The notes beneath the pieces were generated by a model. That model was not told where the DNA came from and searched no databases. It saw only the letters and a program-made list of their open reading frames with translations. Of a stretch of 32,006 nt of DNA, positions 1,571-29,428 are shown one piece after another. The stretch is taken from NCBI GenBank assembly GCA_021848775.1, contig JAJZTR010000008.1, positions 1 through 32,006 of the forward strand. Reading direction: 5' to 3'. Every line of letters begins with the position of its first letter. The stretch's first letter is position 1. Source of the stretch: Chloroflexota bacterium (GTDB lineage Bacteria; Chloroflexota; Anaerolineae; Anaerolineales; Anaerolineaceae). Made by a program: the position numbers and the translations under genes.

Positions 1571-2581
1571 ATGGAAACCAAGCGCGCTTCCCGCCCTTAC
1601 TGGACCGCCTTTCTGGCGATGGCGGCAGCCTTGCTGCTCAGCATTATGGTGGGAAGCGTGCCGATAACCCCAGCCGAGGTCTGGCAAGCGATAAAAACTG
1701 GCGGTGAAACTACCGCGGGGACCATCCTTGGGTCACTGCGTTTGCCGCGTACGATCCTGATCGCCATGACCGGCGCGGCATTGGCGGGAAGCGGAACTGC
1801 CTATCAAGGATTGTTCCGCAACCCGCTGGCAGATCCGTACCTGATTGGGGTCGCAGCCGGTGCCGGGCTGGGCGCGGTGGCGGCGATGAGCCTGAACTGG
1901 CCCTACACCACCCTGGGTTTATTGGCAGTGCCGTTGGCAGCATTCGCGGTAGGATTGCTGACTGTGGTTATCGTCTATTATTTAGCCAGGGTGGGCAAGG
2001 CGCTGCCGGCATCCAACCTGATTTTGGCTGGCGTCGCGGTGAGTTCCTTCGCCACCGCATTAACCTCATTTTTGATGCTGCGCGCCGATGGTGAGCTGCG
2101 GCGGGCTCTGGCCTGGTTGTTGGGCGGTGCCACCATGTCCGGCTGGCAGCCGGTACTTGCGATGCTGCCTTACTGGCTGATTGGTCTGGGCATCCTGCTG
2201 ACACTGGGTCATGCGCTCAATGTGCTGCAATTCGGTGACGAACAGGCCCAACAGTTGGGTTTGCCGGTCACTCGCGTGAGGTGGCTGGTCATCGCGGCCG
2301 CATCCGTCACCACAGCCGCTGCTGTTTCGTTTGCCGGAATTATCGGATTTGTGGGGCTAATCGTTCCGCATATTTTACGGCTAAGGGTCGGACCCGATTA
2401 CCGCCGCCTGCTGCCGTTGTCGCTGGTGGGGGGTGCGGCGCTGCTGCTGGCGGCGGATGTTCTTGCCCGGGTGCTGATTGCACCGCAAGAGCTGCCGGTC
2501 GGGATTGTTACCGCCCTGGCAGGCGCCCCGTTCTTCCTTTGGATCCTGCGGCGCAGCCGTCAGGCCAGTTTTTGGAGCTGA
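1571..2581 (+). CDS. btuC: FecCD/BtuC-family ABC transporter permease
   Basis: Multi-TM protein with family motifs RLPRTILIAMTGAALAGSGTAYQGLFRNPLADPYLIGVAAGAGLGAV and GFVGLIVPHILRL. Confidence 0.9.
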   Translation: METKRASRPYWTAFLAMAAALLLSIMVGSVPITPAEVWQAIKTGGETTAGTILGSLRLPRTILIAMTGAALAGSGTAYQGLFRNPLADPYLIGVAAGAGLGAVAAMSLNWPYTTLGLLAVPLAAFAVGLLTVVIVYYLARVGKALPASNLILAGVAVSSFATALTSFLMLRADGELRRALAWLLGGATMSGWQPVLAMLPYWLIGLGILLTLGHALNVLQFGDEQAQQLGLPVTRVRWLVIAAASVTTAAAVSFAGIIGFVGLIVPHILRLRVGPDYRRLLPLSLVGGAALLLAADVLARVLIAPQELPVGIVTALAGAPFFLWILRRSRQASFWS

Positions 2582-2582
2582 A

Positions 2583-3386
2583 ATGCTTGAAGTTGTCGAT
2601 GTGAGTGTTGGTTATGGGGCAAAAGTAGTGCTGCAGGAATTAACTTTTAGCCTGAAACCTGGCGAGATTCTGGCAGTCATCGGGCCAAACGGGGCGGGAA
2701 AATCAACCCTGGTGCGCGCCTTGAGCGGGGTGATTCCGCTCGGTTCAGGCAAGGTGACCTTCAAAGGACAGGATTTAAACAGCCTGCCGCCGCATGAAAG
2801 AGCGCGGTTGATCGCCGTGGTTCCGCAGGCGCGCAGCATCCCGCCGGCTTACACAGCCTGGCAGGTCGTCATGCTGGGGCGTACCCCCTATCTCAACTGG
2901 TTCGGGCAGACATCGCAGGCGGATGAAGATTTGGTCCGGCAGGCGATGGAGCGCACCCGCACCCTGGAACTAGCGCCGCGCCTCGTTAGCGAGCTTTCTG
3001 GCGGCGAACTGCAGCGGGTGCTGCTGGCGCGGGCGCTGGTGCAAACCACACCCGTACTGCTGCTGGATGAACCAACCACCCATCTCGACCTGCAATATCA
3101 AATTAACCTGTTGAACCAGGTGCAGGGATTGGTACACCAGCCGGAGCGGTGGGCGCAGGCTAATGGACATGGCGCACCCGGTGCGCTGGTGGTTTTGCAT
3201 GACCTGAACCTGGTTTCCCGCTATGCGGACAGGGTAATGCTGCTGGTTGATGGGCACATTCGCGCCCTGGGGACTCGCGACGAAGTACTGCAGTCTGGCA
3301 TGCTGTCCGAAGCCTTTGGCATCGGGTTGGATATCGTGAAAAATCCGGCCGGTCCGCATCCACTGGTGGTACCGCGTTACCATTGA
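2583..3386 (+). CDS. btuD: ABC transporter ATP-binding protein (BtuD/FepC family)
   Basis: Walker A GPNGAGKS, signature LSGGELQRV, Walker B LLLDEPTTHLD; ATG at 2583 is preferred over the extended ORF start at 2478, which overlaps btuC. Confidence 0.9.
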   Translation: MLEVVDVSVGYGAKVVLQELTFSLKPGEILAVIGPNGAGKSTLVRALSGVIPLGSGKVTFKGQDLNSLPPHERARLIAVVPQARSIPPAYTAWQVVMLGRTPYLNWFGQTSQADEDLVRQAMERTRTLELAPRLVSELSGGELQRVLLARALVQTTPVLLLDEPTTHLDLQYQINLLNQVQGLVHQPERWAQANGHGAPGALVVLHDLNLVSRYADRVMLLVDGHIRALGTRDEVLQSGMLSEAFGIGLDIVKNPAGPHPLVVPRYH

Positions 3387-12682: not shown

Positions 12683-13693
12683 TTATTCCTCGAGGACAAC
12701 CAGGTGAGACTGCGTCAACCTTTTGGCTGCCTGAAGCGGCGAAATTTGGCGGGATTCCAATTCAGCGAGCGTCTGATTGTACAGCCCGGCAGGGATTTTG
12801 GCACGCCACTGGCTGGTCAGTTCAGTCTGGATCAGGCTTTCCAGCTCGGACTGCAAGCGAATGCGGTCGCGGATTTGCCAGGCGCCGGTCTCCCGCAGGT
12901 GGCGGGCGTGATCGTCGATGGCATTCACCAGTTCGGATATCCCTTCCGCCCGGGTGGCGACGGTTTGCAGCACGGGTGGAATCCACAGCGGCGTTGATGC
13001 CGACTGCGCATCGTGGTGGCGGGTAGGATGCCCGAGTTCCAGCATGGCGCGGAGCGCGCGGACGGTGCTTTCCAGGCCCGGGTAGTCGGCTTTGTTGATG
13101 ACCAGAATATCGGCGATCTCCAGGATACCGGCTTTGATAGCCTGGATATCGTCACCCATGCCGGGGGCTTCGATCACCAGGGTAGTATGCGCCAGGCGGG
13201 CGATATCCACCTCGGACTGCCCGGCACCAACGGTTTCGACCATGATAACATCGAAACCGGCAGCATCCAACACCTGCACAACATTCGCGGTGGCACGCGC
13301 CAGTCCACCCAGCGCGCCGCGAGTTGCCATGGAGCGGATAAAAATTCCCGGGTCGCCGGCAAGGTCGCGCATGCGAACCCGGTCACCGAGAACCGCGCCG
13401 CCGGTAAAAGGGGAGGTGGGGTCAACCGCGACAACTGCCAGGGTGAGCGCGGGTCGATCAGCGGAGGGCTGGCGCATTTTGAGGGCGATCTGATTAACCA
13501 GGGATGATTTGCCGGCTCCAGGTGAGCCGGTTACGCCAATCAAGTGGGCATGCCCGGTGTGCGTATAAAGCTGGTCGAGCGCGACCTGTCCCTCCGGTGC
13601 ATTATTTTCCACCAGAGTCAACAAGCGGGCCAGCGCCAGTCGCTTGCCATTTAATACACCCGTAACCAGATCCAAAATTTCAGTCACAGGCAA
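12683..13693 (-). CDS. meaB: Methylmalonyl-CoA mutase-associated GTPase MeaB
   Basis: HLIGVTGSPGAGKSSLVNQIA, VAVDPTSPFTGGAVLGDRVRM, FIRSMATRGALGGLA, VETVGAGQSEVDIA. Confidence 0.95.
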   Translation of the reverse strand: MPVTEILDLVTGVLNGKRLALARLLTLVENNAPEGQVALDQLYTHTGHAHLIGVTGSPGAGKSSLVNQIALKMRQPSADRPALTLAVVAVDPTSPFTGGAVLGDRVRMRDLAGDPGIFIRSMATRGALGGLARATANVVQVLDAAGFDVIMVETVGAGQSEVDIARLAHTTLVIEAPGMGDDIQAIKAGILEIADILVINKADYPGLESTVRALRAMLELGHPTRHHDAQSASTPLWIPPVLQTVATRAEGISELVNAIDDHARHLRETGAWQIRDRIRLQSELESLIQTELTSQWRAKIPAGLYNQTLAELESRQISPLQAAKRLTQSHLVVLEE

Positions 13694-13696
13694 ATT

Positions 13697-14119
13697 TCAC
13701 CCATGAGGTTTTGAAAGAATTGTACGCTTGAAATCTTCAACCACCTGGGTGGTTGGCGTCCCAGGTCCGTAGACGGCTTTTACCCCGGCGGCTATCAGAG
13801 CCGGGATATCGTTTTCGGGAATGATGCCGCCGACAAACACCTCCACATCGTTTTGCCCATTGGCTCGCAGCAATTCTATAACACGCGGAACCAATGCCAT
13901 GTGAGCTCCAGACAATATGGAAACCCCGACAGCGTCCACATCTTCCTGTAATGCAGCCTCGGCGATCATTTCTGGGGTCTGGCGCAGGCCGGTATAAATG
14001 ACCTCCATTCCGGCGTCGCGCAAGGCACGGGCAACCACTTTTGCTCCCCGGTCATGGCCGTCCAAACCAGGTTTTGCGATCAAGACCCGAATTTTTCTTT
14101 CCGTCATGCGGTTCTCCAA
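13697..14119 (-). CDS. Methylmalonyl-CoA mutase small subunit / cobalamin-binding domain
   Basis: [43 protein letters not shown] with the DGHDRG B12-binding motif; SILSGAH; adjacent to meaB. Confidence 0.95.
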
Positions 14120-15497: not shown

Positions 15498-18400
15498 ATG
15501 ACCTTTGCCCATCTGCATGTTCATACTCAATATTCCTTGCTGGACGGCTTCTCGAACATCAAGAAGCTGGTGCAGCGCGTAAAGGAGATGAACATGCCGG
15601 CGGTTGCCATCACCGACCATGGCACCATGTTCGGCGTCATCGAGTTTTTTAATGCGGCTAAAGCTGCCGGGGTCAAACCGATCATCGGCGTGGAGGCTTA
15701 CCTGGCAGCTCACGGCATGAACGACCGCGATTCCCGCCAGGATAAGACCTCTTCACACTTGCTGCTGCTGGCCGAAAATGACACAGGGTACCGGAATCTG
15801 CTTAAGATTGCCAGCGCCGCTCAGTTGGAGGGGTTTTATTATTTCCCGCGCATCGATCACGACTTTTTGGCGGCGCATTCAGAGGGATTGATTGCTACCT
15901 CAGGGTGTATGGCAGCCGAAATCCCGCGCACGATTATGGATAAAGGCGCTGAGGCCGCCCGTCAAAAACTGGATTGGTACTACGACGTCTTCGGGCAGAA
16001 CAACTTTTTCCTCGAGCTTCAGCAGCATAACATCGCTGATTTGCAGACGATCAATAAAACCTTGTTGGACCTCGGATCGCGGTATCAAGCCCGCTACGTT
16101 GCCACCAATGATGTGCATTATATCGAACCGGAGGATTGGCGCTACCAGGACATCCTGCTCGCCATCCAGACCGGATCGTTGATTACGGAGCCTAATCGCT
16201 TCCGCATGTCTGATGATACCTACTATCTACGCACGCCCGAGGAAATGGCGCGGCTGTTCGCCGAAGTACCTGAGGCGCTGTCCAACACCCTGCTGATCGC
16301 AGACCGCGCTAATGTGGACCTGTCTTTCAAGGGTTACCATTTGCCGTTATTTGACGTGCCTGAGGGGCATACCCCTGATACTTATCTGCGGCAATTGTGC
16401 GAGGTTGGAATGGAGCTGCGCTACGGCAGCCAGGCACATGACCCGAAGGTCCGGTCTCAACTTGAATATGAGTTAAAAGTCATTCACGATATGGGCTTCG
16501 ATGCCTATTTCCTGATCGTGTGGGATTTGTGCCGCTATGCCCGCGCGAACGGCATCTGGTACAACACGCGCGGCTCAGCTGCTGCCTCAATCGTGGCTTA
16601 CACTTTACAAATCACGAATGTCGAACCACTGGCGCATGGTCTGATCTTCGAGCGCTTCCTCAATCCGGGACGTATCTCGATGCCGGATATCGACCTGGAT
16701 TTCCAGGACGATATGCGGGCAAAGATGATGGAATACACAGCCCAAAAGTACGGCAGCGACCGCGTGGCGCAAATAATCACCTTTGGTACGCTGGGAGCGC
16801 GAGGCGCGGTCCGTGATGTCGGACGGGTGATGGATATCCCACTTAACGAAGTCGACCGTGTCAGCAAACTTATTCCGAACATCCCCAGCAACCCGCTGAC
16901 GGTTACAGAAGCCCTGGAGGTTACCCCGGAATTAAAGGCGGTGTATAACCAGGCCCCTTACCTGAAGGAATTAATTGACACTGCCGCCCATATGGAAGGT
17001 GCGGTGCGCAGCGCAGGGACGCATGCGGCTGGCGTGATTATCACCGACAAGCCAATCCTGGAATATATTCCGCTGCACCGACCAACCAGCGGTTCAGAAG
17101 AATCGCCGATTAAGACCGTGACCCAGTTCGAAATGTCGATTATCGATTCGCTCGGGCTGCTCAAAGTTGACTTCCTGGGGCTGGCGACTTTGACGATCAT
17201 GCAGCGTGCCTGTGATTTAATCGAATCCCGCCATGGGATGAGGTTAAATCTTGGCAATATTCCGGTCGATGACCCGGCAACGTACGAGTTCCTTGGCTCC
17301 GGTCACACGGCGGGTGTTTTCCAGTTGGAAGGCACAGGCATGACGCGCTATATCATGCAGATGAAGCCTAATTCGCTGGAGAATGTCATCGCCATGGTGG
17401 CACTTTACCGTCCTGGACCATTGCAGTTTATTCCGCAGTACATTCGCCGTATGCACGGTGAAGAAGACGTGGAATATCTCGATCCGTCGATGGAGCCGAT
17501 TTTCAAAGAAACCTACGGCATCCCTATTTACCAGGAACAGCTGATGCGAGCCGCGGTTGAATTGGGCGGATACACCCTGCCGGAAGCCGATGAACTGCGC
17601 AAGGTAATTTCAAAAAAGCAAAAAGACAAGCTGGAAAAACAACGCGCAAAGTTTATCAAGGGAGCTTGTGAAAAAGGACTGACCAGGAAAACGGCTGAGG
17701 CTATCTTTGCCAACTGGGAGCAATTTGCCAATTACGGATTTAACAAATCCCATGCGGCAGATTACGGCATTATTGCGGTACAGACAGCCTACCTCAAAGC
17801 GCATTACACGGTTGAATACATGACCGCGCTCCTCTCGGCTTCGAAGAATGATATCGAGAAGGTGGCTTTCTATGTCGCGGACAGCCGCTCCATGGGCATC
17901 GAAGTGCTTCCGCCTGATATTAACTCCAGTCAGTATGATTTCTCCATCGAAGACCGTGAAGGTCAGGCGCCGGCGATTCGCTTTGGACTGGGAGCGGTAA
18001 AAAATGTCGGGCAGACACCCGTTGAAATAATTTTAGATGCGCGCAAGAATGGACCTTTCGCTGACCTGAAGGATCTGGCCTTCCGCGCCGATTTACAAAA
18101 AATTGGGAAACGCTCGTTGGAGTGTCTGGTGAGGGTGGGGGCGCTCGACCGTTTCGGTTCGCGCAAAGCTTTGCTGGCGGGATTGGATCAATTCATCTCG
18201 GTCAGCGCCAGTCATTTCCGCGCGCTCAACAGCGGTCAGTTGAGCTTCTTTGGCACCATCGCGGGTGTCGAGGAAGAAATAAGGCTGCCAATCTCGCCAG
18301 CGCTCGACCGCCGCGAACAGTTGGAATGGGAACGCGAACTGATCGGGTTGTACGTCTCTGACCATCCGCTGACACCTTATTTGCCCACATTGCATCGCAA

Positions 18401-19418
18401 AATAACCCATTTCTCAGCAGCACTACCGGATGTGCCCCATAAAGACAGGGTGGTTGTAGCCGGGCTGGTGACACGCTTTCGCAGCCACCAGACTAAAAAA
18501 GGCGACATGATGGGGTTTGTCACGCTGGAAGACATTCAGGGTTCGATCGAATTGTTGCTGTTCCCCCGGGCATGGTCTCAATTTTCTGGTATGGTGGTCA
18601 TGGACCGTGTCTTGATGACAGAAGGCCGCCTGGATAACGAAAATGGAGATCCAAAGGTGCTGGTGGACCGGCTGTCCGAGGTCTTCATCGATGGGGAAGG
18701 TCAAGATCAATCCCAGGAAATCGATCCATATCTGAGTTATCTGCCGGACGAAGAAAACGAATCCTCCCAGGGAGATTTCAGCTTTATGGTCAATGACCAC
18801 GGCATCAAGCCAAACCGCGCCGCCAGCCCACCACCTGCCGAAGGGGATGAATGGGGAGGTGTGGTGCCGCCCCCGCCGCCTGATCCTGACGACTGGCATT
18901 TAAACGAGTATGCCGGTTTCACGGTAGCCGCAGCGGAGCGAAAAGCTCCGTCTGCCAAACCTGAACCCGAAAAAGACCAACCTGAGGGTGAAGTAGCTGC
19001 GTCCTCTCCTGCTGTACCCGTTGAGAAGACACCTGCCGCACCTGACTCCGCTGCCAGAGTATATGATCGTATCCCACAACCTCCCGCGGAACCGCCTGTT
19101 CAGCCTTCACCGATGCGCTACCTGGTGTCGCCTCAGACGGAAGCCGGTGATGTTCCCGGCGAGATCCGCATGATTAAAGTGATTTTACGTTCCACCGGCG
19201 ATAAACGGCGGGATGTCCTGAGGCTGCGCCGGGTCCACGGTATGCTGCGTTCGGTACCCGGTAGAGATAAATTCGCTCTGCTGGTGTTCGAGGGCGGAAG
19301 CCGCTTCCTGATGGAGTTTCCCAACGAAACGACTGGCATCAGCACAGACCTATTGCGCGCGTTAACCGCCATGGTTGGTGAAGGCAGCGTGCTGGTTGAG
19401 ACCATAAAGCTACAATAG
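15498..19418 (+). CDS. dnaE: DNA polymerase III subunit alpha
   Basis: 1306 aa; PHP domain HLHVHTQYSLLDG...AITDHGTMFG; catalytic PDIDLDFQDDMR; ALYRPGPL; NKSHAADYG; OB-fold. Confidence 0.97.
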   Translation: MTFAHLHVHTQYSLLDGFSNIKKLVQRVKEMNMPAVAITDHGTMFGVIEFFNAAKAAGVKPIIGVEAYLAAHGMNDRDSRQDKTSSHLLLLAENDTGYRNLLKIASAAQLEGFYYFPRIDHDFLAAHSEGLIATSGCMAAEIPRTIMDKGAEAARQKLDWYYDVFGQNNFFLELQQHNIADLQTINKTLLDLGSRYQARYVATNDVHYIEPEDWRYQDILLAIQTGSLITEPNRFRMSDDTYYLRTPEEMARLFAEVPEALSNTLLIADRANVDLSFKGYHLPLFDVPEGHTPDTYLRQLCEVGMELRYGSQAHDPKVRSQLEYELKVIHDMGFDAYFLIVWDLCRYARANGIWYNTRGSAAASIVAYTLQITNVEPLAHGLIFERFLNPGRISMPDIDLDFQDDMRAKMMEYTAQKYGSDRVAQIITFGTLGARGAVRDVGRVMDIPLNEVDRVSKLIPNIPSNPLTVTEALEVTPELKAVYNQAPYLKELIDTAAHMEGAVRSAGTHAAGVIITDKPILEYIPLHRPTSGSEESPIKTVTQFEMSIIDSLGLLKVDFLGLATLTIMQRACDLIESRHGMRLNLGNIPVDDPATYEFLGSGHTAGVFQLEGTGMTRYIMQMKPNSLENVIAMVALYRPGPLQFIPQYIRRMHGEEDVEYLDPSMEPIFKETYGIPIYQEQLMRAAVELGGYTLPEADELRKVISKKQKDKLEKQRAKFIKGACEKGLTRKTAEAIFANWEQFANYGFNKSHAADYGIIAVQTAYLKAHYTVEYMTALLSASKNDIEKVAFYVADSRSMGIEVLPPDINSSQYDFSIEDREGQAPAIRFGLGAVKNVGQTPVEIILDARKNGPFADLKDLAFRADLQKIGKRSLECLVRVGALDRFGSRKALLAGLDQFISVSASHFRALNSGQLSFFGTIAGVEEEIRLPISPALDRREQLEWERELIGLYVSDHPLTPYLPTLHRKITHFSAALPDVPHKDRVVVAGLVTRFRSHQTKKGDMMGFVTLEDIQGSIELLLFPRAWSQFSGMVVMDRVLMTEGRLDNENGDPKVLVDRLSEVFIDGEGQDQSQEIDPYLSYLPDEENESSQGDFSFMVNDHGIKPNRAASPPPAEGDEWGGVVPPPPPDPDDWHLNEYAGFTVAAAERKAPSAKPEPEKDQPEGEVAASSPAVPVEKTPAAPDSAARVYDRIPQPPAEPPVQPSPMRYLVSPQTEAGDVPGEIRMIKVILRSTGDKRRDVLRLRRVHGMLRSVPGRDKFALLVFEGGSRFLMEFPNETTGISTDLLRALTAMVGEGSVLVETIKLQ

Positions 19419-19437
19419 AAAAGCGGAAGAAAGTCAA

Positions 19438-20421
19438 ATGACAGAAGACCATCCTATTAAGACGATTGGTTTGTTAACTTCTGGCGGCGATGCGCCGGGT
19501 ATGAACCCATGTATTCGTGCAGTTGTTCGGGCTGGATTGGCGCGCGGATTGAATGTGATTGGTATTGAAGATGGATTCGAGGGGCTGATCAAAGGCCGTT
19601 TTCGTCCGCTCGGCGCGCGTGATGTGGGTGGCATTCTGCAGCGCGGCGGCACAATTTTGCAGACTGCGCGCTGCGACGAATTCATGCAGCCGCAAAGCCA
19701 GCGTGAGGCAATTCGGATGATCAACGACGCGGAGATCGACGGCGTGGTGGTCATCGGTGGTGATGGCAGTCTGCGCGGGGCGCAAATCCTGGCGGAACGG
19801 GGGATTACCGTGGTGGGTATTCCCGCCAGCATCGACAACGATGTCTTTGGTACCGATATTTGTATCGGCGTCGATACCGCGTTAAACACGATTGTAGATG
19901 CCATCGACAAATTGCGAGACACGGCTTCATCGAATAACCGTGCCTTCCTGGTGGAGACCATGGGCCGCCTGTCAGGTTATCTGGCGATGCAGGCGGGGAT
20001 TGTTACCGGGGCGGAACTGGTCCTGGTCCCTGAAGTGCCGACCGACGTCGAGGGGGTGGTTCACACGATGGAAGCAGCCTATCAACGCGGCAAAAGCCAT
20101 TGCATTGTGGTTGTGGCGGAGGGGGCCAACCCGCCGATCAGCGAACTGGCGGCATTGATCAACTCACGCGAGCTTGGTTTCTCAACGAGAGTTACTATTC
20201 TGGGCCATATTCAACGCGGCGGGAAACCCTCAGCTTTTGATCGTTTGCTGGCATCGCGCTTTGGCAGCAAAGCTGTGGAATTTCTGACTGAAGGAAAAAC
20301 CGGTGTTATGACCGGTTTACATGGCAGCGAGGTTGAGGCGATTCCATTGAGCGTTGTTTTTTCTCAGAGTAAATCGCTGCCCATGGATCAGTACGAGATG
20401 GCGCAAATGCTGGCGCGGTAG
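19438..20421 (+). CDS. pfkA: 6-phosphofructokinase
   Basis: LTSGGDAPGMNPCIRAVVR, GGDGSLRGAQ, PASIDNDVFGTD, ETMGRLSGYLA, LGHIQRGGKPSAFDR. Confidence 0.93.
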   Translation: MTEDHPIKTIGLLTSGGDAPGMNPCIRAVVRAGLARGLNVIGIEDGFEGLIKGRFRPLGARDVGGILQRGGTILQTARCDEFMQPQSQREAIRMINDAEIDGVVVIGGDGSLRGAQILAERGITVVGIPASIDNDVFGTDICIGVDTALNTIVDAIDKLRDTASSNNRAFLVETMGRLSGYLAMQAGIVTGAELVLVPEVPTDVEGVVHTMEAAYQRGKSHCIVVVAEGANPPISELAALINSRELGFSTRVTILGHIQRGGKPSAFDRLLASRFGSKAVEFLTEGKTGVMTGLHGSEVEAIPLSVVFSQSKSLPMDQYEMAQMLAR

Positions 20422-20429
20422 GAAGGGAA

Positions 20430-20516
20430 ATAAAGGCCGCCCTGTATCAGGTTGATCCGTTCACCAATATTCTGGGGCAGGCGGTGACGATCTTCGAGGG
20501 ACGGCTGGAGATTTAA
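20430..20516 (+). pseudogene. Probable internally deleted phzF-like remnant
   Basis: Reading from ATA at 20430: (I)KAALYQVDPFTNILGQAVTIFEGRLEI-stop; resembles the PhzF N-terminus (YQVDAFT) joined to its C-terminus (GGxAVxxxEGxL). Confidence 0.5.
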
Positions 20517-21943
20517 TGCTCGCTGCGGGTCTTACGGGCGGGTGGTTTTCGAACAGCTGGCGCTGATCCAGCCAGGTAAGCCGGGGCGGTGATCGCGTAA
20601 ATGATGCACAGTCGTTTATCCAGCATGCGGCTGCGCACACGAGGATCGATTTCGTCCAACCGCTGGGCAGTTGTGATCACGGTGGGCAGCTTGGCGTTAT
20701 AGCGGTGATTGAGCAGCTGGTAGAGCTTCTCCCGCGCCCACGGCGTGGCAGATTGCGTTCCCAAATCGTCCAGGATCAATAATGAGGCAGTGCGGACTTC
20801 CTCGAAAAGCCGGTCGTAAGAGACGGAACTGGAGGGGCTGAAGGTGGCGCGCAGGTGGTCGAGCAGATCGGGAACGACCACAAAAATGGGATCTTCACCC
20901 ATAGCTTTTCGGTAGTTGCCAATGGCAGCCGCCAGATGAGTCTTGCCGCTGCCGTAGCTGCCCATTAAAACCAGCCAGCCCTGAGGTTCAACAGCGTACT
21001 CATGGGCGGCTTTAAAGGCTTTCTGCAGGCTTTGCTGTTCATCGGCAGGCAATTTCTCGTATTCGCGCAGCGAGAATGAACCGAAGGTGCGGTCTCCCAA
21101 GAGGGTCAGCGATGAGACAACCGAACGGCGTTCATCCGAGACCGGTGAGCGGTAATCCGGAGCGGTGATCTCCAGCAGGGTGACCAGGTCGGGATCCTGC
21201 AGGCGGGAGGTGATGCGACCGTCGATCTCGTTGAGCAAGAGATTGGTGGTCACCACCATCGGCAGCTTGTTGACATAGCGGTGGTTGATGATCTGGTACA
21301 GTTTTTCCTCAGCCCAGGGAGTGGCGTTTTGCGTTCCCAGATCGTCCAGCACCAGGAGGTTAATGCTGCGGATTTCTTCCAGCCGTTGTTCCAGAGAGGA
21401 CTCATCGCTTTCGAAGGAAAAACGCAGCCAGTCCAGCAGATCAGGGACGGTCAGGAATAAGGTTGGACCACCCAATTCCACCACCTGATTGGCAATGGCT
21501 GCCGCCAGGTGTGTTTTTCCGGTGCCGTAGCCGCCCATCATTAATAACCAGCCTTGCGGATTGTTGGCGAATTGCTGCGCCTGGTTGAAGGCAAACTGAA
21601 GGGATCGTACCTGCTGGTCGCCAAGCCCCAGCCGGCCCTGTACCTTGAAACTCTCGAAGGTCATCCCGCTGAAAGCATCGAGGTTGCTCAAACGGTACAG
21701 GCGTCTGCGCTCCGTGCGGGAAACCTCTTTCTGGCGGCAAACACACACGGATAACTTGCCGAAATCCGGGTGATCGACGGGCAGGTCATGGCGCACAAAG
21801 CCGATTCCGCCGCAAATCGGGCAGTTTGGATCGCCGCGGAATGGCTGCGGGGTGTCGCCGGTATCAGTGCTCGATGAATTCACCGAATTCTCCTTCGACG
21901 TACCGCCGGCGATCTTTTTCAGTTTTTCCTCGAGTGGCTCCAT
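20513..21943 (-). CDS. Tandem DnaC/DnaI/IstB-like AAA+ ATPase (two helicase-loader domains in one polypeptide, N-terminal Cys4 cluster)
   Basis: Two Walker A motifs (GGYGTGKTHLAAAI, GSYGSGKTHLAAAI), two Walker B motifs (LLVLDDLGTQNATPWAEEKLYQIINHRY, LLILDDLGTQSATPWAREKLYQLLNHRY), N-terminal CPICGG/CVCR. Start at 21943 has GGAAAGGG upstream. Confidence 0.9.
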   Translation of the reverse strand: MEPLEEKLKKIAGGTSKENSVNSSSTDTGDTPQPFRGDPNCPICGGIGFVRHDLPVDHPDFGKLSVCVCRQKEVSRTERRRLYRLSNLDAFSGMTFESFKVQGRLGLGDQQVRSLQFAFNQAQQFANNPQGWLLMMGGYGTGKTHLAAAIANQVVELGGPTLFLTVPDLLDWLRFSFESDESSLEQRLEEIRSINLLVLDDLGTQNATPWAEEKLYQIINHRYVNKLPMVVTTNLLLNEIDGRITSRLQDPDLVTLLEITAPDYRSPVSDERRSVVSSLTLLGDRTFGSFSLREYEKLPADEQQSLQKAFKAAHEYAVEPQGWLVLMGSYGSGKTHLAAAIGNYRKAMGEDPIFVVVPDLLDHLRATFSPSSSVSYDRLFEEVRTASLLILDDLGTQSATPWAREKLYQLLNHRYNAKLPTVITTAQRLDEIDPRVRSRMLDKRLCIIYAITAPAYLAGSAPAVRKPPARKTRSEH

Positions 21944-22568
21944 TGGGTTCCCTTTCCATGCGGGAGCGTAAAATTGCTTCAATATACCGCCAACGGCGGA
22001 CGTTGCTTTCGACCGCAGCGCGAATTGCCTCGTTTATCCATTCCATCGGGTAATTTGCCTCGGCTTCGCGCAACGCTTCCGCAATCATTGGCGTCAGCGG
22101 GCCAATATTCTGTTCGTACAGCCGATAGATATTGGGCCGTTCCAACTCCAGTGAAAGTTCAGGCCGGGCAACATCTTCGGGTGACCATTCACCTTTTTCC
22201 AGTGCGGCGATAGCCGCCTCGCCGCGCGGCGTATTGAGAAAAAACAATACACCTGTCTGGGGGTCATCACCCTGTTGGACGCGCAGCAAGCTGCCGCGTT
22301 GGACCGCACGTTCAAGCGCGTCCATCAATGCAGCAGCGGCTGTTTCCGGTGAACGCGCGAGCCCTTCGAGCAAGCGGCTGTCATTTGAAAAATCCTGGTA
22401 GCGTAAAAACCGTAAATCGCCTTCCAGTCGTTCCAAAAACCAGAATGCGTACAGCGTCACCTTAAGCTCGCCCAGATGGTCAATTTCGGGGAGCAGGTCG
22501 GAAAAAAAGGCGGCAGGCAGGCGGGTTAGCCGCGATTTTCCTGCGGGAAAACCGTCAAAGCGTGCCAT
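21864..22568 (-). CDS. DnaD-domain replication protein
   Basis: C-terminal NIYRLYEQNIGPLTPMIAEALREAEANYPMEWINEAIRAAVESNVRRWRYIEAILRSRMERE matches the DnaD/DnaB_2 domain pattern. Confidence 0.88.
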   Translation of the reverse strand: MARFDGFPAGKSRLTRLPAAFFSDLLPEIDHLGELKVTLYAFWFLERLEGDLRFLRYQDFSNDSRLLEGLARSPETAAAALMDALERAVQRGSLLRVQQGDDPQTGVLFFLNTPRGEAAIAALEKGEWSPEDVARPELSLELERPNIYRLYEQNIGPLTPMIAEALREAEANYPMEWINEAIRAAVESNVRRWRYIEAILRSRMEREPNGATRGKTEKDRRRYVEGEFGEFIEH

Positions 22569-22574
22569 TGCGTC

Positions 22575-23966
22575 TTATCCCACTCCACCGGGGATGAACT
22601 TTTCGGTGGCAGCATTATCGAACCGCGCCAGGTTGCTGCGGAATATCAGTTCGATGCCGGAATGGGTCGGACCATTACGATGTTTCGCAACGATCAGCCG
22701 GGCCACATCCTGTTTGGGATGATCTTTGTCCAGCGCGTCCGGCCGGTGGATGAACATGACGATATCAGCGTCCTGTTCCAGACTCCCTGACTCGCGCAAG
22801 TCGGAAAGTATGGGTTGTTTATCAGCGCGCTGCTCCACCGCACGCGAGAGCTGGGCTGCTGCCAACACCGGAACGTTGAGTTCGCGCGCCAGCACTTTGA
22901 GATTGCGCGAGATGTAAGACACTTCCTGAACGCGGTTATCGTTCCGTGAATCTCCTGACATAAGCTGCAGGTAATCCACCAGGATCAAATCCAGCTGGTG
23001 TTCCATATGCAGGCGGCGGCACTTCGTGCGTAATTGCAGCGGTGTTATGGCAGGCGTATCGTCCAGCCAAATGTGCGTCCCTGATAGGACCTCGATGGCG
23101 TGGGTGAAGAGCAGCCATTCCTCGTCCTTGAGTTTGCCGGTGCGCAACCGTTGCGATTCGATGCCAGTCTCCTGAGAGATCAAACGCTGCACCAGTTGCT
23201 CAGCGGACATTTCGAGGGAGAACATTGCCACATGTTTTTTATGTTTCTGGGCTGCATTTTTGGCAACCGAAAGGAGGAAACCGGTTTTACCCATACCGGG
23301 GCGCCCGGCGACGATGAGTAAATCCGATTTTTGCAGACCACCCAGCAAGCGGTCCAGGTCGTGCAGACCCGTAGGCACGCCAAAAATCTCTTCATCCCGC
23401 TTTGAAAGTTCATCGATCCGGTCGTAATAACTGCTGATGACGGTGTTGATGGACTGCAGATCATGCTGTAAACGGCGGTCGCTCAGGCCAAAGACTTCTT
23501 TTTCAGCTTCGCCGATCAAGGTGTCAATATCCCGGTGCTGGTCAAAAGCCAGGCGGGCCATGTCGTTTGCCGCTGCCAGCATCCTCCGCCGAAGCGAAGT
23601 CTCTTCAACGATCCGCGCGTAGGCTTCAGCATGCAATGAGGTTGGTGTCTGGGTTATCAGGGAAGTAAGGTAAGCCGCGCCACCGATCTCGAAAAGCTGC
23701 CCTTTTTGTTCCAGCTCATTTTCGACGGTCAAATAATCAATGGGGACGCGGCGCTCATTCAGGCTTACAAAGACCTCCCACACCCAGCGGTTGCGCACGA
23801 TGTAGAAATCATCCGGGCGCAGTATATGAGAGATATCGTAATAAACTTCCGGGTTGACGAAAACTGCCCCAAGGACAGCCTCCTCAGCTGCACGGTCATG
23901 AGGTTGGGCTGGTTCCATCGTGGAACTGCTATTATCAAATGGAGGGGAAAAATCGCTCATTGTCAC
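22575..23966 (-). CDS. dnaB: Replicative DNA helicase
   Basis: PHDRAAEEAVLGAVFVNPEVYYDISHILRPDDFY; Walker A AGRPGMGKT; DLILVDYLQLMSG; FIHRPDALDKDHPKQDVARLIVAKHRNGPTH. Confidence 0.97.
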   Translation of the reverse strand: MTMSDFSPPFDNSSSTMEPAQPHDRAAEEAVLGAVFVNPEVYYDISHILRPDDFYIVRNRWVWEVFVSLNERRVPIDYLTVENELEQKGQLFEIGGAAYLTSLITQTPTSLHAEAYARIVEETSLRRRMLAAANDMARLAFDQHRDIDTLIGEAEKEVFGLSDRRLQHDLQSINTVISSYYDRIDELSKRDEEIFGVPTGLHDLDRLLGGLQKSDLLIVAGRPGMGKTGFLLSVAKNAAQKHKKHVAMFSLEMSAEQLVQRLISQETGIESQRLRTGKLKDEEWLLFTHAIEVLSGTHIWLDDTPAITPLQLRTKCRRLHMEHQLDLILVDYLQLMSGDSRNDNRVQEVSYISRNLKVLARELNVPVLAAAQLSRAVEQRADKQPILSDLRESGSLEQDADIVMFIHRPDALDKDHPKQDVARLIVAKHRNGPTHSGIELIFRSNLARFDNAATEKFIPGGVG

Positions 23967-25913: not shown

Positions 25914-27035
25914 TTAGATCAGCCCAACAACCAGAGCGAAGAGCAAGCTTCCGGCTACGACGCTGGCAAGCTGCCCGGCTGTGTTGGATCCCATGGCATG
26001 CATGAGGATGAAATTATTCGGGTCCTCTTCCAAAGCTACCTGAGCCGATAAACGGCCGGACATTGGGAAGGCCGAAATACCGCAAGCGCCAACCAGCGGG
26101 TTGATCTTGCCTTTGGTGATGACTGCCAGAAGTTTGCCGAAAAGCAAACCGCCGACTGAATCCAGGACAAAGGCAAACAAACCCAGGACGAGGATGAGCA
26201 AAGTGTCCAGGCGAATAAAGGATTCGGCGGTCATGGTTGCGCCGACAGTCAGACCCAGGAATAAGGTTGAAATGTTGATGAGCTCGTTCTGCGCCGATTT
26301 ACTCAAGCGTTCCACCACGCCGGATTCGCGAAGCAGATTGCCAAGCATGAGCGAGGCGATTAGAGGAGCTGCATCGGGCGCGATTAGCGCAACCAGCACT
26401 GTCACGACAATCGGGAAGACGATCATGACACGGTCAGAGATTTGGTGCTGGGCATATTCCATGCGGATCATGCGCTCTTTCCGGGTAGTCAGGGCTTTCA
26501 TGATCGGCGGTTGGATGATCGGGACCAGGCTCATGTAGGAGTAGGCCGCCACAGCGATCGGGCCGAGCATTTCAGGCGCCAGCCGCGAGGTCACAAAAAT
26601 GGCGGTTGGACCGTCGATGGTGCCGATGGCGGCGATGGATGCCGCTTCGTTAAGTTCAAAGCCCAACAAAGCAGCTAAAATCAGGGTTGCGTAGATACCG
26701 AAATGACCGGCTGCGCCAAGCATTGCCATACTGGGCATGGATAGCAGGGGGCGAAAGTCGAGCATGGCACCAACGCCGATAAAGATCAGCAGGGGAAACA
26801 GCTCAGTCTCGATGCCAGCTTTGTAAAGAATACCAAGGAAGTTATCTTCATAGGCAGACATGCCCACATTGGCCAGAATACAGCCAATGCCTATCGGCAG
26901 CAGCAGCATGGGTTCGTATTCTTTGAACACGGCTAGCGCAATTAAAGTGCCGCCCACCACAATCATGACTGCATTTTGCCATGTGAAGCTGGCTAAACCT
27001 TGCGTGAGGATGTTAAAGACTTCGGATAAGTCCAT
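25914..27035 (-). CDS. Sodium ion-translocating decarboxylase beta subunit (OadB/MmdB/GcdB)
   Basis: Polytopic protein with LLIFIGVGAMLDFRPLL, GTIDGPTAIFVTSRLAPEMLGPIAVAAYSYM, NPLVGACGISAFPMSGR, MHAMGSNTAGQLASVVAGS. Confidence 0.93.
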   Translation of the reverse strand: MDLSEVFNILTQGLASFTWQNAVMIVVGGTLIALAVFKEYEPMLLLPIGIGCILANVGMSAYEDNFLGILYKAGIETELFPLLIFIGVGAMLDFRPLLSMPSMAMLGAAGHFGIYATLILAALLGFELNEAASIAAIGTIDGPTAIFVTSRLAPEMLGPIAVAAYSYMSLVPIIQPPIMKALTTRKERMIRMEYAQHQISDRVMIVFPIVVTVLVALIAPDAAPLIASLMLGNLLRESGVVERLSKSAQNELINISTLFLGLTVGATMTAESFIRLDTLLILVLGLFAFVLDSVGGLLFGKLLAVITKGKINPLVGACGISAFPMSGRLSAQVALEEDPNNFILMHAMGSNTAGQLASVVAGSLLFALVVGLI

Positions 27036-27048
27036 TAGACATCACTCC

Positions 27049-27495
27049 TTAATCGCCAATCTCGATGAGGGCCTGACCGTGCCTGACTTGATCTCCAGGA
27101 TGAACGTGGATCGCAACAACTTTACCGGCGCGCGGTGAGCGGATGGAGTTCTTCATTTTCATCGCCTCCAGCTTGAGCACTTCCTGACCCTGCGTGACGG
27201 AAACACCTTCCTTGACCAGGATGCTGTCGACTGTGCCGGGTAATGGGGCGACAATGACCGATCCGCCTGTTGTTGATACAACAGCGGCAGCCGCAGGAGC
27301 AGCAGCAACCGGTCGGGCAGCCGGAGCGGGCGGAGGAGCAGCGGGAGAAGCGGCGATGGTTGGCGCAGGAGCAGTTATTTCTTCCGGGAGAATTTCGAAG
27401 GTCTCGCCATCGATGGTCGCCAGGATGGGGCGGCTGTCCAGGTCTCCCACCTCTACATCATAGGTTACATCATTGATTTTCACAGTTAGTTTCAT
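27049..27495 (-). CDS. Biotin carboxyl carrier subunit of decarboxylase
   Basis: Ala/Pro linker then APLPGTVDSILVKEGVSVTQGQEVLKLEAMKMKNSIRSPRAGKVVAIHVHPGDQV with the biotinylation motif EAMKMKN; start at 27495 (MKLTVKI). Confidence 0.93.
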   Translation of the reverse strand: MKLTVKINDVTYDVEVGDLDSRPILATIDGETFEILPEEITAPAPTIAASPAAPPPAPAARPVAAAPAAAAVVSTTGGSVIVAPLPGTVDSILVKEGVSVTQGQEVLKLEAMKMKNSIRSPRAGKVVAIHVHPGDQVRHGQALIEIGD

Positions 27496-27506
27496 AAGAC
27501 CGATCC

Positions 27507-27866
27507 TCATTTGTGGGAAATAATCTGGTTGCGCCGGCTAATTTGATCCGCCCGTTGGGCAGCCTGCCAGGGAGTGGAAGTGATGCCGCTGGGTTTCGGA
27601 ATAAACCGCGCGCTCGTTTTGCGCAGCGCCAGAGCAACAGCAACCGCTAAAGCCGCGGCTTTGGCTTTATCAGCGATGCCTTCCTGAGGAACAATGGCAG
27701 CGGCTGGGGTTTCGGGGATATTTCCTTCGGCTGCCACAGGTACTTTAGATTTTTGATCAGGAATTCGGGCCATTAGGGCCATGATCCCCCAGATTACCGC
27801 CATGGAGGCGAACAGAAGGACGAGGCTGATGGCTGAAATCCATAAAGCTTGATCAAGAGTGGACAT
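27507..27866 (-). CDS. OadG-like small membrane subunit of decarboxylase
   Basis: 119 aa, single N-terminal TM, Pro/Ala-rich tail; sits between alpha and biotin-carrier genes as in known Na+-decarboxylase operons. Confidence 0.7.
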   Translation of the reverse strand: MSTLDQALWISAISLVLLFASMAVIWGIMALMARIPDQKSKVPVAAEGNIPETPAAAIVPQEGIADKAKAAALAVAVALALRKTSARFIPKPSGITSTPWQAAQRADQISRRNQIISHK

Positions 27867-27877
27867 TACACTCTCCT

Positions 27878-29428
27878 TTACAGCGGGATGTTGCCGTGTT
27901 TTTTGGCCGGGGTTACTTCAGTTTTTTCCCGCAGGGCGATGAGGGCGGCAATTACGCGTTTGCGGGTCTCGCGAGGTTCGATTACATCATCGATGTAACC
28001 ATCGGCGGCAGCAGAATAGGGATTGAGGAAGGACTTGCGGAATTCTTCCACCATTTTTGCGCGTTCAGCAGCCTTGTCTTCCGCGGCTTCGATCTGCCGG
28101 CGGTAAACGACATTGGCGGCGCCTTCAGGTCCCATGACCGCAATTTCGGCACTTGGCCAGGCAAAGGCAATGTCAGCACCCAGTAATTTCGAGCTCATGA
28201 CGATGTACGCACCACCGTAGCCTTTGCGGGTAGTGATCTGAATCTTTGGAACGGTGGCTTCGGAGTAGGCAAACAGCACTTTTGCTCCGTGACGGATCAC
28301 GCCGTTATGCTCCGAAGAGACACCGGGCAGGAAGCCGGGCGAGTCACAGAAGGTGACCAGCGGGATGTTGAAGGCATCGCAGAAACGCACGAAGCGGGCG
28401 ATCTTATCCGCTGAGTTCATTTCCATTGCCCCGGCCATAACCGAAGGCTCCTGGGCAACAATACCCACGGTATAACCGCCCATGCGGGACAGGCCGATGA
28501 TCGCATTGGTGGCGAAGGTCGCCTGCAATTCAACAAAGGTGCCGCGGTCGACGATGTGGTCAATAACCTCGTGCATGTTGTAAGATTCGGTGTTGCTCTC
28601 CGGGACGATGTGATTGAGTTCCTCGTCCATGCGGTCGGGGTCGTCGCCGGTATCGACGTACGGCGGATTTTCGGTGTTGTTGGATGGCAGGTAGCTCAGG
28701 ATGCGGCGCGCCAGGGCGATCGCATCTTTGTCACTTGGGGCAGTCAAATGAGCGGTACCGCTGGTACCCAGATGAACCGCAGCGCCGCCCAGGCTTTCCA
28801 TGTCGATAACCTCTCCGGTGACCGATTTGATGACTTCAGGGCCGGTGAGGAACATGAAAGACTGCTTCTCGACCATGATGATCATGTCGGTGACGGTTGG
28901 GGAGTAAGCTGCACCACCAGCACACGGTCCCATGACCAGGCTGATCTGCGGGATCACACCCGAGTATAAGGTATTGCGGCGGAAAATCTGGGCATAGCCC
29001 CACAGACTGCGGGTACCTTCATGGATGCGGGCGCCGCCTGAGTCGATCATGCCAATGACCGGTGAACCGGTCTGGGCTGCCAGATCCATCAGGCGAGCAA
29101 TTTTTCGTCCGTGAATCTCACCCAGTGAACCGCCCATGACGGTGAAATCCTGGGCATAGACATAAATGGTTCGCCCTTCAAGGGTACCCCAACCGGTGAT
29201 AACGCCGTCTGTATCAATCCGCTCGCCAACGCCAAAATCTTCACTTCTGTGGGATGAGTACAGTTCAACTTCATTGAACGATCCGGCATCAAGCAGTTCT
29301 AGGATTCTTTCGCGGGCGGTCAGTTTGCCTTTTGCTTTATACTTGGCAATCCGATCTTCTCCGCCCGCCTTCTGAGCATTTGCGCGCCTTTCACGCAATT
29401 CAAGAATTCGGGGATCTTCGTCAGCCAT
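27878..29428 (-). CDS. Acyl-CoA carboxyltransferase, probably methylmalonyl-CoA decarboxylase alpha subunit (MmdA/PccB family)
   Basis: GKLTARERILELLDAGSFNEVE, DFTVMGGSLGEIHGRKI, IDSGGARIHEG, GPCAGGAAYSPTVTDMIIMV, TRKGYGGAYIVMSSKLLGAD. Confidence 0.92.
   Translation of the reverse strand: MADEDPRILELRERRANAQKAGGEDRIAKYKAKGKLTARERILELLDAGSFNEVELYSSHRSEDFGVGERIDTDGVITGWGTLEGRTIYVYAQDFTVMGGSLGEIHGRKIARLMDLAAQTGSPVIGMIDSGGARIHEGTRSLWGYAQIFRRNTLYSGVIPQISLVMGPCAGGAAYSPTVTDMIIMVEKQSFMFLTGPEVIKSVTGEVIDMESLGGAAVHLGTSGTAHLTAPSDKDAIALARRILSYLPSNNTENPPYVDTGDDPDRMDEELNHIVPESNTESYNMHEVIDHIVDRGTFVELQATFATNAIIGLSRMGGYTVGIVAQEPSVMAGAMEMNSADKIARFVRFCDAFNIPLVTFCDSPGFLPGVSSEHNGVIRHGAKVLFAYSEATVPKIQITTRKGYGGAYIVMSSKLLGADIAFAWPSAEIAVMGPEGAANVVYRRQIEAAEDKAAERAKMVEEFRKSFLNPYSAAADGYIDDVIEPRETRKRVIAALIALREKTEVTPAKKHGNIPL

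Follow-up and report, generated by a model that had tools for sequence, protein, structure and literature searches.

A tandem protein of the DnaC/DnaI helicase-loader family with two unequal AAA+ domains in Chloroflexota

Gene neighbourhood and domain layout of the loader

The window, by which we mean the whole stretch of 32,006 nucleotides that was analysed, contains a trio of reverse-strand genes that encode the replicative helicase DnaB, a DnaD-domain protein and a tandem DnaC/DnaI-type helicase loader (Table 1). The 3′ end of the dnaD-like gene overlaps the start of the loader gene by 80 bp, and the DnaB of the operon is presumed to be the client of the loader. The genes for DNA polymerase III alpha (dnaE) and phosphofructokinase converge on this operon (15498-20421). 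Elsewhere in the window lie genes for the alpha, biotin carrier and beta components of a sodium-pumping methylmalonyl-CoA decarboxylase (25914-29428) and for MeaB and a B12-binding protein (12683-14119), which together suggest a methylmalonyl-CoA pathway.

Table 1. Positions in the window of the genes, domains and motifs discussed in the text
Feature	Position	Strand	Basis or conservation
DnaB, replicative helicase gene	22575..23966	-	TIGR00665, 538 bits; first of the trio
DnaD-domain (DnaB_2) protein gene	21864..22568	-	upstream of loader; Pfam PF07261 40 bits, TIGR01446 39 bits
Shine-Dalgarno-like AAAGGG	21950..21955	-	read from sequence; six bases 5′ of the loader ATG
Tandem DnaC/DnaI-type helicase loader ORF	20513..21943	-	476 aa, intact; ATG at 21943, stop at 20513
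N-terminal helix, residues 4-14, candidate helicase-binding helix	21902..21934	-	AF2 model, moderate confidence
Cys4 knuckle C41-x2-C44...C67-x-C69 (CPIC...CVC, residues 41-69)	21737..21823	-	conservation
AAA+ domain 1 (D1), residues 76-268, predicted catalytic	21140..21718	-	profiles, conservation, pLDDT mostly >90
Walker A, D1, GGYGTGKT, residues 137-144	21512..21535	-	K143 in 225/225
Walker B acidic pair D200-D201, D1	21341..21346	-	D200 225/225, D201 224/225
Sensor 1 Asn234, D1	21242..21244	-	N in 216/225
Arg-coupler R243 and Arg-finger R247, D1 (RxxxR)	21203..21217	-	R243 220/225, R247 219/225
Sensor 2 Arg265, D1	21149..21151	-	R in 220/225, other 5 gaps
AAA+ domain 2 (D2), residues 279-461, predicted ATP-holding/structural	20561..21109	-	profiles, conservation, pLDDT mostly >90
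Walker A, D2, GSYGSGKT, residues 328-335	20939..20962	-	K334 in 220/225, remaining 5 gaps
Walker B acidic pair D392-D393, D2	20765..20770	-	D392 218/225, D393 213/225
Degenerate sensor 1 Ala426, D2	20666..20668	-	A/S/T/V/R replaces Asn in nearly all class members
Arg-coupler R435 and Arg-finger R439, D2	20627..20641	-	R435 212/225, R439 222/225
Degenerate sensor 2 Leu457, D2	20573..20575	-	R in only 123/225

From its N-terminus the loader consists of a helix, a disordered stretch, a Cys4 knuckle and the AAA+ domains D1 and D2. The MxxIxExLK start region is conserved, and by analogy with α1 of DnaC the helix may bind the helicase. The cysteine cluster, already noted in the original prediction that was made from the sequence alone, is invariant or nearly so (C41, C44 and C67 in 104/104 aligned tandems, C69 in 101/104) and is the probable zinc site of the N-terminal domain. 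D1 and D2 share 51% identity over 181 aligned aa (E=4e-63), far beyond chance. The original prediction of two homologous modules 191 aa apart in one ORF was thus borne out, and the Walker A motifs are intact in both domains at the positions that it had given. The profile search that it proposed gave two matches to Pfam IstB_IS21 (PF01695; 130 bits in total, E=1e-37) and a PRK08116 (NCBIfam) match over two stretches (244 bits, cut-off 189); the DnaI, DnaC and IstB profiles likewise each matched twice. The DnaA equivalog profile scored 85 against a cut-off of 344, below the level of a full DnaA. The AF2 model (pLDDT 90, pTM 0.77) was confident for the domains, and its closest structure in Foldseek was E. 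coli DnaC in the DnaBC-ssDNA complex (6QEM).

Catalytic residues of the two domains

Residue counts refer to 225 tandem proteins from the class of the window organism, Anaerolineae, unless stated otherwise, and the DnaC residues tested in PMC8213410 served as the motif reference. Walker B reads LDD in both domains of the window loader. The RxxxR coupler-finger motif is present in both domains in about 94% or more of the class members, and those without R243 or R247 in D1 are nearly all gaps in the alignment. The RxxxR of D1 was matched to R216/R220 of DnaC (motif assignment after PMC8213410). A first register, which placed DnaC R216 on R247 and left D1 without a finger, was dropped because the spacing of R243/R247 and R435/R439 equals that of R216/R220 in DnaC and R281/R285 in DnaA. 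The ssDNA-binding tetrad, equivalent to K143, F146, S177 and Y179 in DnaC, is R, F/Y, T/S and W in both D1 and D2.

The two domains differ at the sensors. Sensor 1 of the window loader reads VTTN in D1 and ITTA in D2, as the original prediction had pointed out (VVTTN versus VITTA), and only D1 combines the sensor-1 Asn with the sensor-2 Arg. The difference extends across the class, where both residues occur together in D1 of 216/225 proteins and in D2 of 2/225, and D2 is thus a divergent copy. In DnaC, N203A in sensor 1 and R237D in sensor 2 each eliminate the ATPase activity (PMC8213410). Two fully canonical domains were found in only 2/260 tandems (L048, and L317 with a doubtful alignment), as against one canonical domain in 29/32 single-domain Chloroflexota loaders, and the sequences in such counts share descent and hence are not independent events. 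Of the three non-canonical single loaders, two have D2 alone and the third is a broken gene. The main new result is that nearly every tandem has one compromised site in its pair.

In 14 of the 35 tandems from outside the class, D1 lacked both sensors and D2 the sensor-1 Asn; another 8 combined a D1 without sensor 2 with a fully canonical D2; the sensor-2 alignment is weak in these D1 domains, from which the segment is often absent. The Dehalococcoides-like tandems had mostly lost the sensor-1 Asn from both domains. Because this pattern differs and other lineages degrade D1, the identity of the degenerate domain varies by lineage, and a catalytic D1 with a structural D2 cannot be a general rule. 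The D2 domains of L196, L198, L200, L201, L203, L204, L221 and L224 have Arg at the sensor-1 position and have lost the Arg-coupler. This is the case for 8/9 of the Dehalococcoides-like D2 domains with a sensor-1 Arg, as if the arginine had moved.

Proposed arrangement on the DnaB hexamer

The reading that we favour, and consider fairly probable, is that the protein is the chromosomal DnaB loader, a domesticated DnaC/DnaI AAA+ protein built as a covalent asymmetric dimer in which one site is catalytic and the other holds ATP. The N-terminal helix and the Cys4 knuckle would dock on DnaB. D1 and D2 are both predicted to bind ATP and to line the DNA path, because both keep the residues for ATP binding, the Arg finger and the ssDNA-contacting residues. 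In Anaerolineae, D1 would hydrolyse ATP, since only D1 keeps both sensors, and D2 would be a structural partner that holds ATP without efficient turnover and donates its finger to a D1 site. The original prediction had proposed that an internal duplication gave rise to a covalent asymmetric loader dimer; the domain copies and their asymmetry agree with it, but the duplication occurs well beyond this genome and the degenerate domain varies by lineage.

The favoured arrangement would place three chains on each DnaB hexamer, with D1 and D2 alternating around a single ring. Such a ring would hard-wire the trimer of asymmetric dimers that Bacillus DnaI forms on DnaB6 (PMC3791466). Not every loader acts as a dimer: E. 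coli DnaC uses six individual chains, 6:6 with DnaB, arranged in a spiral (PMC9912922). Covariation between D1 and D2 (mean-field DCA, Neff 190) was at the level of noise. That each DnaB hexamer is served, in Anaerolineae and Dehalococcoides-like bacteria, by three covalent pairs of asymmetric AAA+ domains, in which sites that hydrolyse ATP alternate with sites that do not, is offered tentatively, as somewhat less likely than not. If it is true, no more than three ATP molecules would have to be hydrolysed for loading, and the member of the pair that was silenced would differ among Chloroflexota lineages. In DnaC/DnaI homo-oligomers a mutation hits every subunit, which makes the subunit number and the ATP requirement per DnaB hexamer hard to test; in a naturally fused asymmetric loader each position can be mutated separately within one chain.

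Six chains could instead form two stacked rings on the DnaB hexamer, one of D1 and one of D2, like those of p97 and other type II AAA+ proteins, with the second ring as a degenerate layer that stabilises the complex or grips DNA. Each domain retains its own Arg finger and DNA tetrad, six N-terminal domains would fit the 6:6 DnaB:DnaC complex, and the sensor-1 Arg with coupler loss in Dehalococcoides-like D2 domains (8/9) could reflect a contact between D2 neighbours. However, Foldseek superposition on p97-type chains was poor (rmsd mostly 9-20 Å, TM about 0.4), so the domain arrangement in the model is not p97-like, and Bacillus DnaI is already dimeric on DnaB. We consider the stacked rings unlikely, though the strongest competitor of the alternating ring.

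Cellular role, spread and relation to known systems

The gene order dnaB-dnaD-loader was found for 131/143 class tandems. In other Chloroflexota families a dnaD gene adjoins most of the single-domain loaders as well, and the single and tandem forms therefore share one slot. Firmicute phages carry the same dnaD-dnaC gene pair, consistent with domestication of phage dna[CI] genes, for which one Chloroflexi case has been reported, in a main text that does not mention a tandem (PMC5109545). The loader gene is chromosomal and single copy, a search of the source genome found no second loader, and the sole other AAA+ match of DnaC/DnaI type was DnaA (G000:C204). DciA, which is mutually exclusive with dna[CI] (PMC5109545; PMC9912922), was found in 0/41 relatives bearing the loader and in 0/16 sampled loader-bearing genomes elsewhere in Chloroflexota, and in 18/22 Chloroflexota without the loader. 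The near-complete Chloroflexota genomes G244, G256 and G273 (family f73) had no match to DciA or to an AAA+ loader. From the distribution of DciA, the operon context, the absence of a second loader from the source genome and the fold match to E. coli DnaC, we infer, strongly but short of a demonstration, that the tandem protein is very probably the chromosomal DnaB loader. Such a role adds to the picture of how Chloroflexota, including organohalide-respiring bioremediation bacteria, start replication without DciA.

The family also includes the IstB transposition helpers and is kin to DnaA, so that an AAA+ protein with a part in restart or regulation, such as a factor akin to IstB or a modulator of DnaA, could be envisaged in place of the main chromosomal loader. 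We regard this as improbable, given the class-wide operon with dnaB and dnaD, the mutual exclusion with DciA and the single chromosomal copy. No IstA transposase gene lies near the loader, whose neighbours are dnaB and dnaD, and both domains have the Arg-coupler, which is found in DnaC, DnaI and DnaA but not in IstB (PMC8213410); with no adjoining IstA and with the coupler present, the protein does not resemble an IstB transposition helper. It is slightly less probable still that D2 is a neutral decaying relic and that D1 and the N-terminal domain load DnaB alone. Both sensors of D2 are lost in most of the class, and related families manage with single-domain loaders, but the Walker A Lys, the Arg finger and the tetrad Arg and Trp of D2 are almost invariant in the 225 class proteins, the frame stays open class-wide, and some other lineages have preserved D2 better than D1.

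In total, 260 distinct tandem proteins were recovered from Anaerolineae, Dehalococcoides/Dehalogenimonas-like genomes and other Chloroflexota families, and full-length homologues of the window loader occur in most genomes of the class and many of the phylum. The sources include cultured type strains, and named records with the tandem are Bellilinea caldifistulae, Levilinea saccharolytica, Longilinea arvoryzae and Pelolinea submarina (a complete chromosome). The window genome is a 253-contig draft, but the idea that assembly or binning duplicated a gene with one domain is refuted by the shared layout of the 260 homologues, complete genomes among them, and by a D1-D2 identity of 51%; the original prediction had named an assembly duplication as a possible refutation. 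Nor did its other possible refutation, tandem loaders that are already characterised, materialise: in open-access papers on Chloroflexi/Dehalococcoides/Anaerolinea or tandem AAA+ loaders we found no description of this architecture, which does not prove novelty. The Dehalococcoides/Dehalogenimonas-like genomes with the tandem were recognised in part by their 24-53 reductive-dehalogenase matches. One genome has a broken second tandem copy in two overlapping frames (L228:1234-2618) beside an intact one (G030:C161). The phage and plasmid matches listed were all single-domain. On a 103-kb viral contig (L352) two distinct loader genes lie side by side, an unfused analogue of the tandem: the first (1563-2522) includes an N-terminal region with Cys residues, and the second (2550-3110) is AAA+ only.

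The original prediction had also called for a phylogeny of D1 versus D2 across Chloroflexota. The D2 domains from all lineages clustered together, and the D1 domains and single loaders fell outside this group, near phage and plasmid outgroups. Constraining D2 to one clade gave a better likelihood (+5.1 lnL), and an independent duplication within the class was rejected (p-AU 0.014), on the basis of a quick tree with AU tests; the single loaders may be ancestral or may have lost D2. The duplication is ancient within Chloroflexota and not peculiar to the source genome. Single loaders of two families have a D2-type AAA+ domain joined straight to the Cys knuckle (L191:5997-6863 and L192:5773-6690), which indicates probable loss of D1; a D2-type domain can therefore be the sole AAA+ domain of a chain. 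In the canonical single loader L213:2181-3809 a low-complexity Pro/Ala-rich stretch of ~300 aa precedes the Cys knuckle, and L217:5838-7550 has a shorter one at the same place.

Among known systems, Bacillus subtilis DnaI (4M4W, PMC3791466) shares the AAA+ fold, the Cys/zinc N-terminal domain and a DnaD partner in the pathway, and it works as dimers on DnaB6, which resembles the proposed fused dimer. In contrast to the window loader, it has one AAA+ domain per chain and its dimer is non-covalent with identical subunits. E. coli DnaC (6QEL/6QEM) is the best fold match, has an N-terminal helix and conserves Walker A and B, the RxxxR coupler-finger and the ssDNA tetrad in position, but each of its six identical chains has a single AAA+ domain with both sensors, and its N-terminal domain has no Cys cluster. 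The single-domain Chloroflexota loaders (e.g. L174-L187) and PRK08116-type phage and plasmid loaders share the slot after dnaD, the Cys knuckle and an AAA+ core up to about 60% identical to the window domains, but have only one, canonical AAA+ domain. The IS21 helper ATPase IstB belongs to the same Pfam family (PF01695) and to the AAA+ initiator clade, but it has one domain, no Arg-coupler and the IstA transposase as its partner. In type II AAA+ proteins (p97/VCP, Cdc48) each chain likewise has two AAA+ modules, which often differ in activity, but these proteins belong to another AAA+ clade, form stacked rings, unfold proteins and superpose poorly. With two AAA+ domains per chain, the window loader is a variant of the DnaC/DnaI family and not a standard member.
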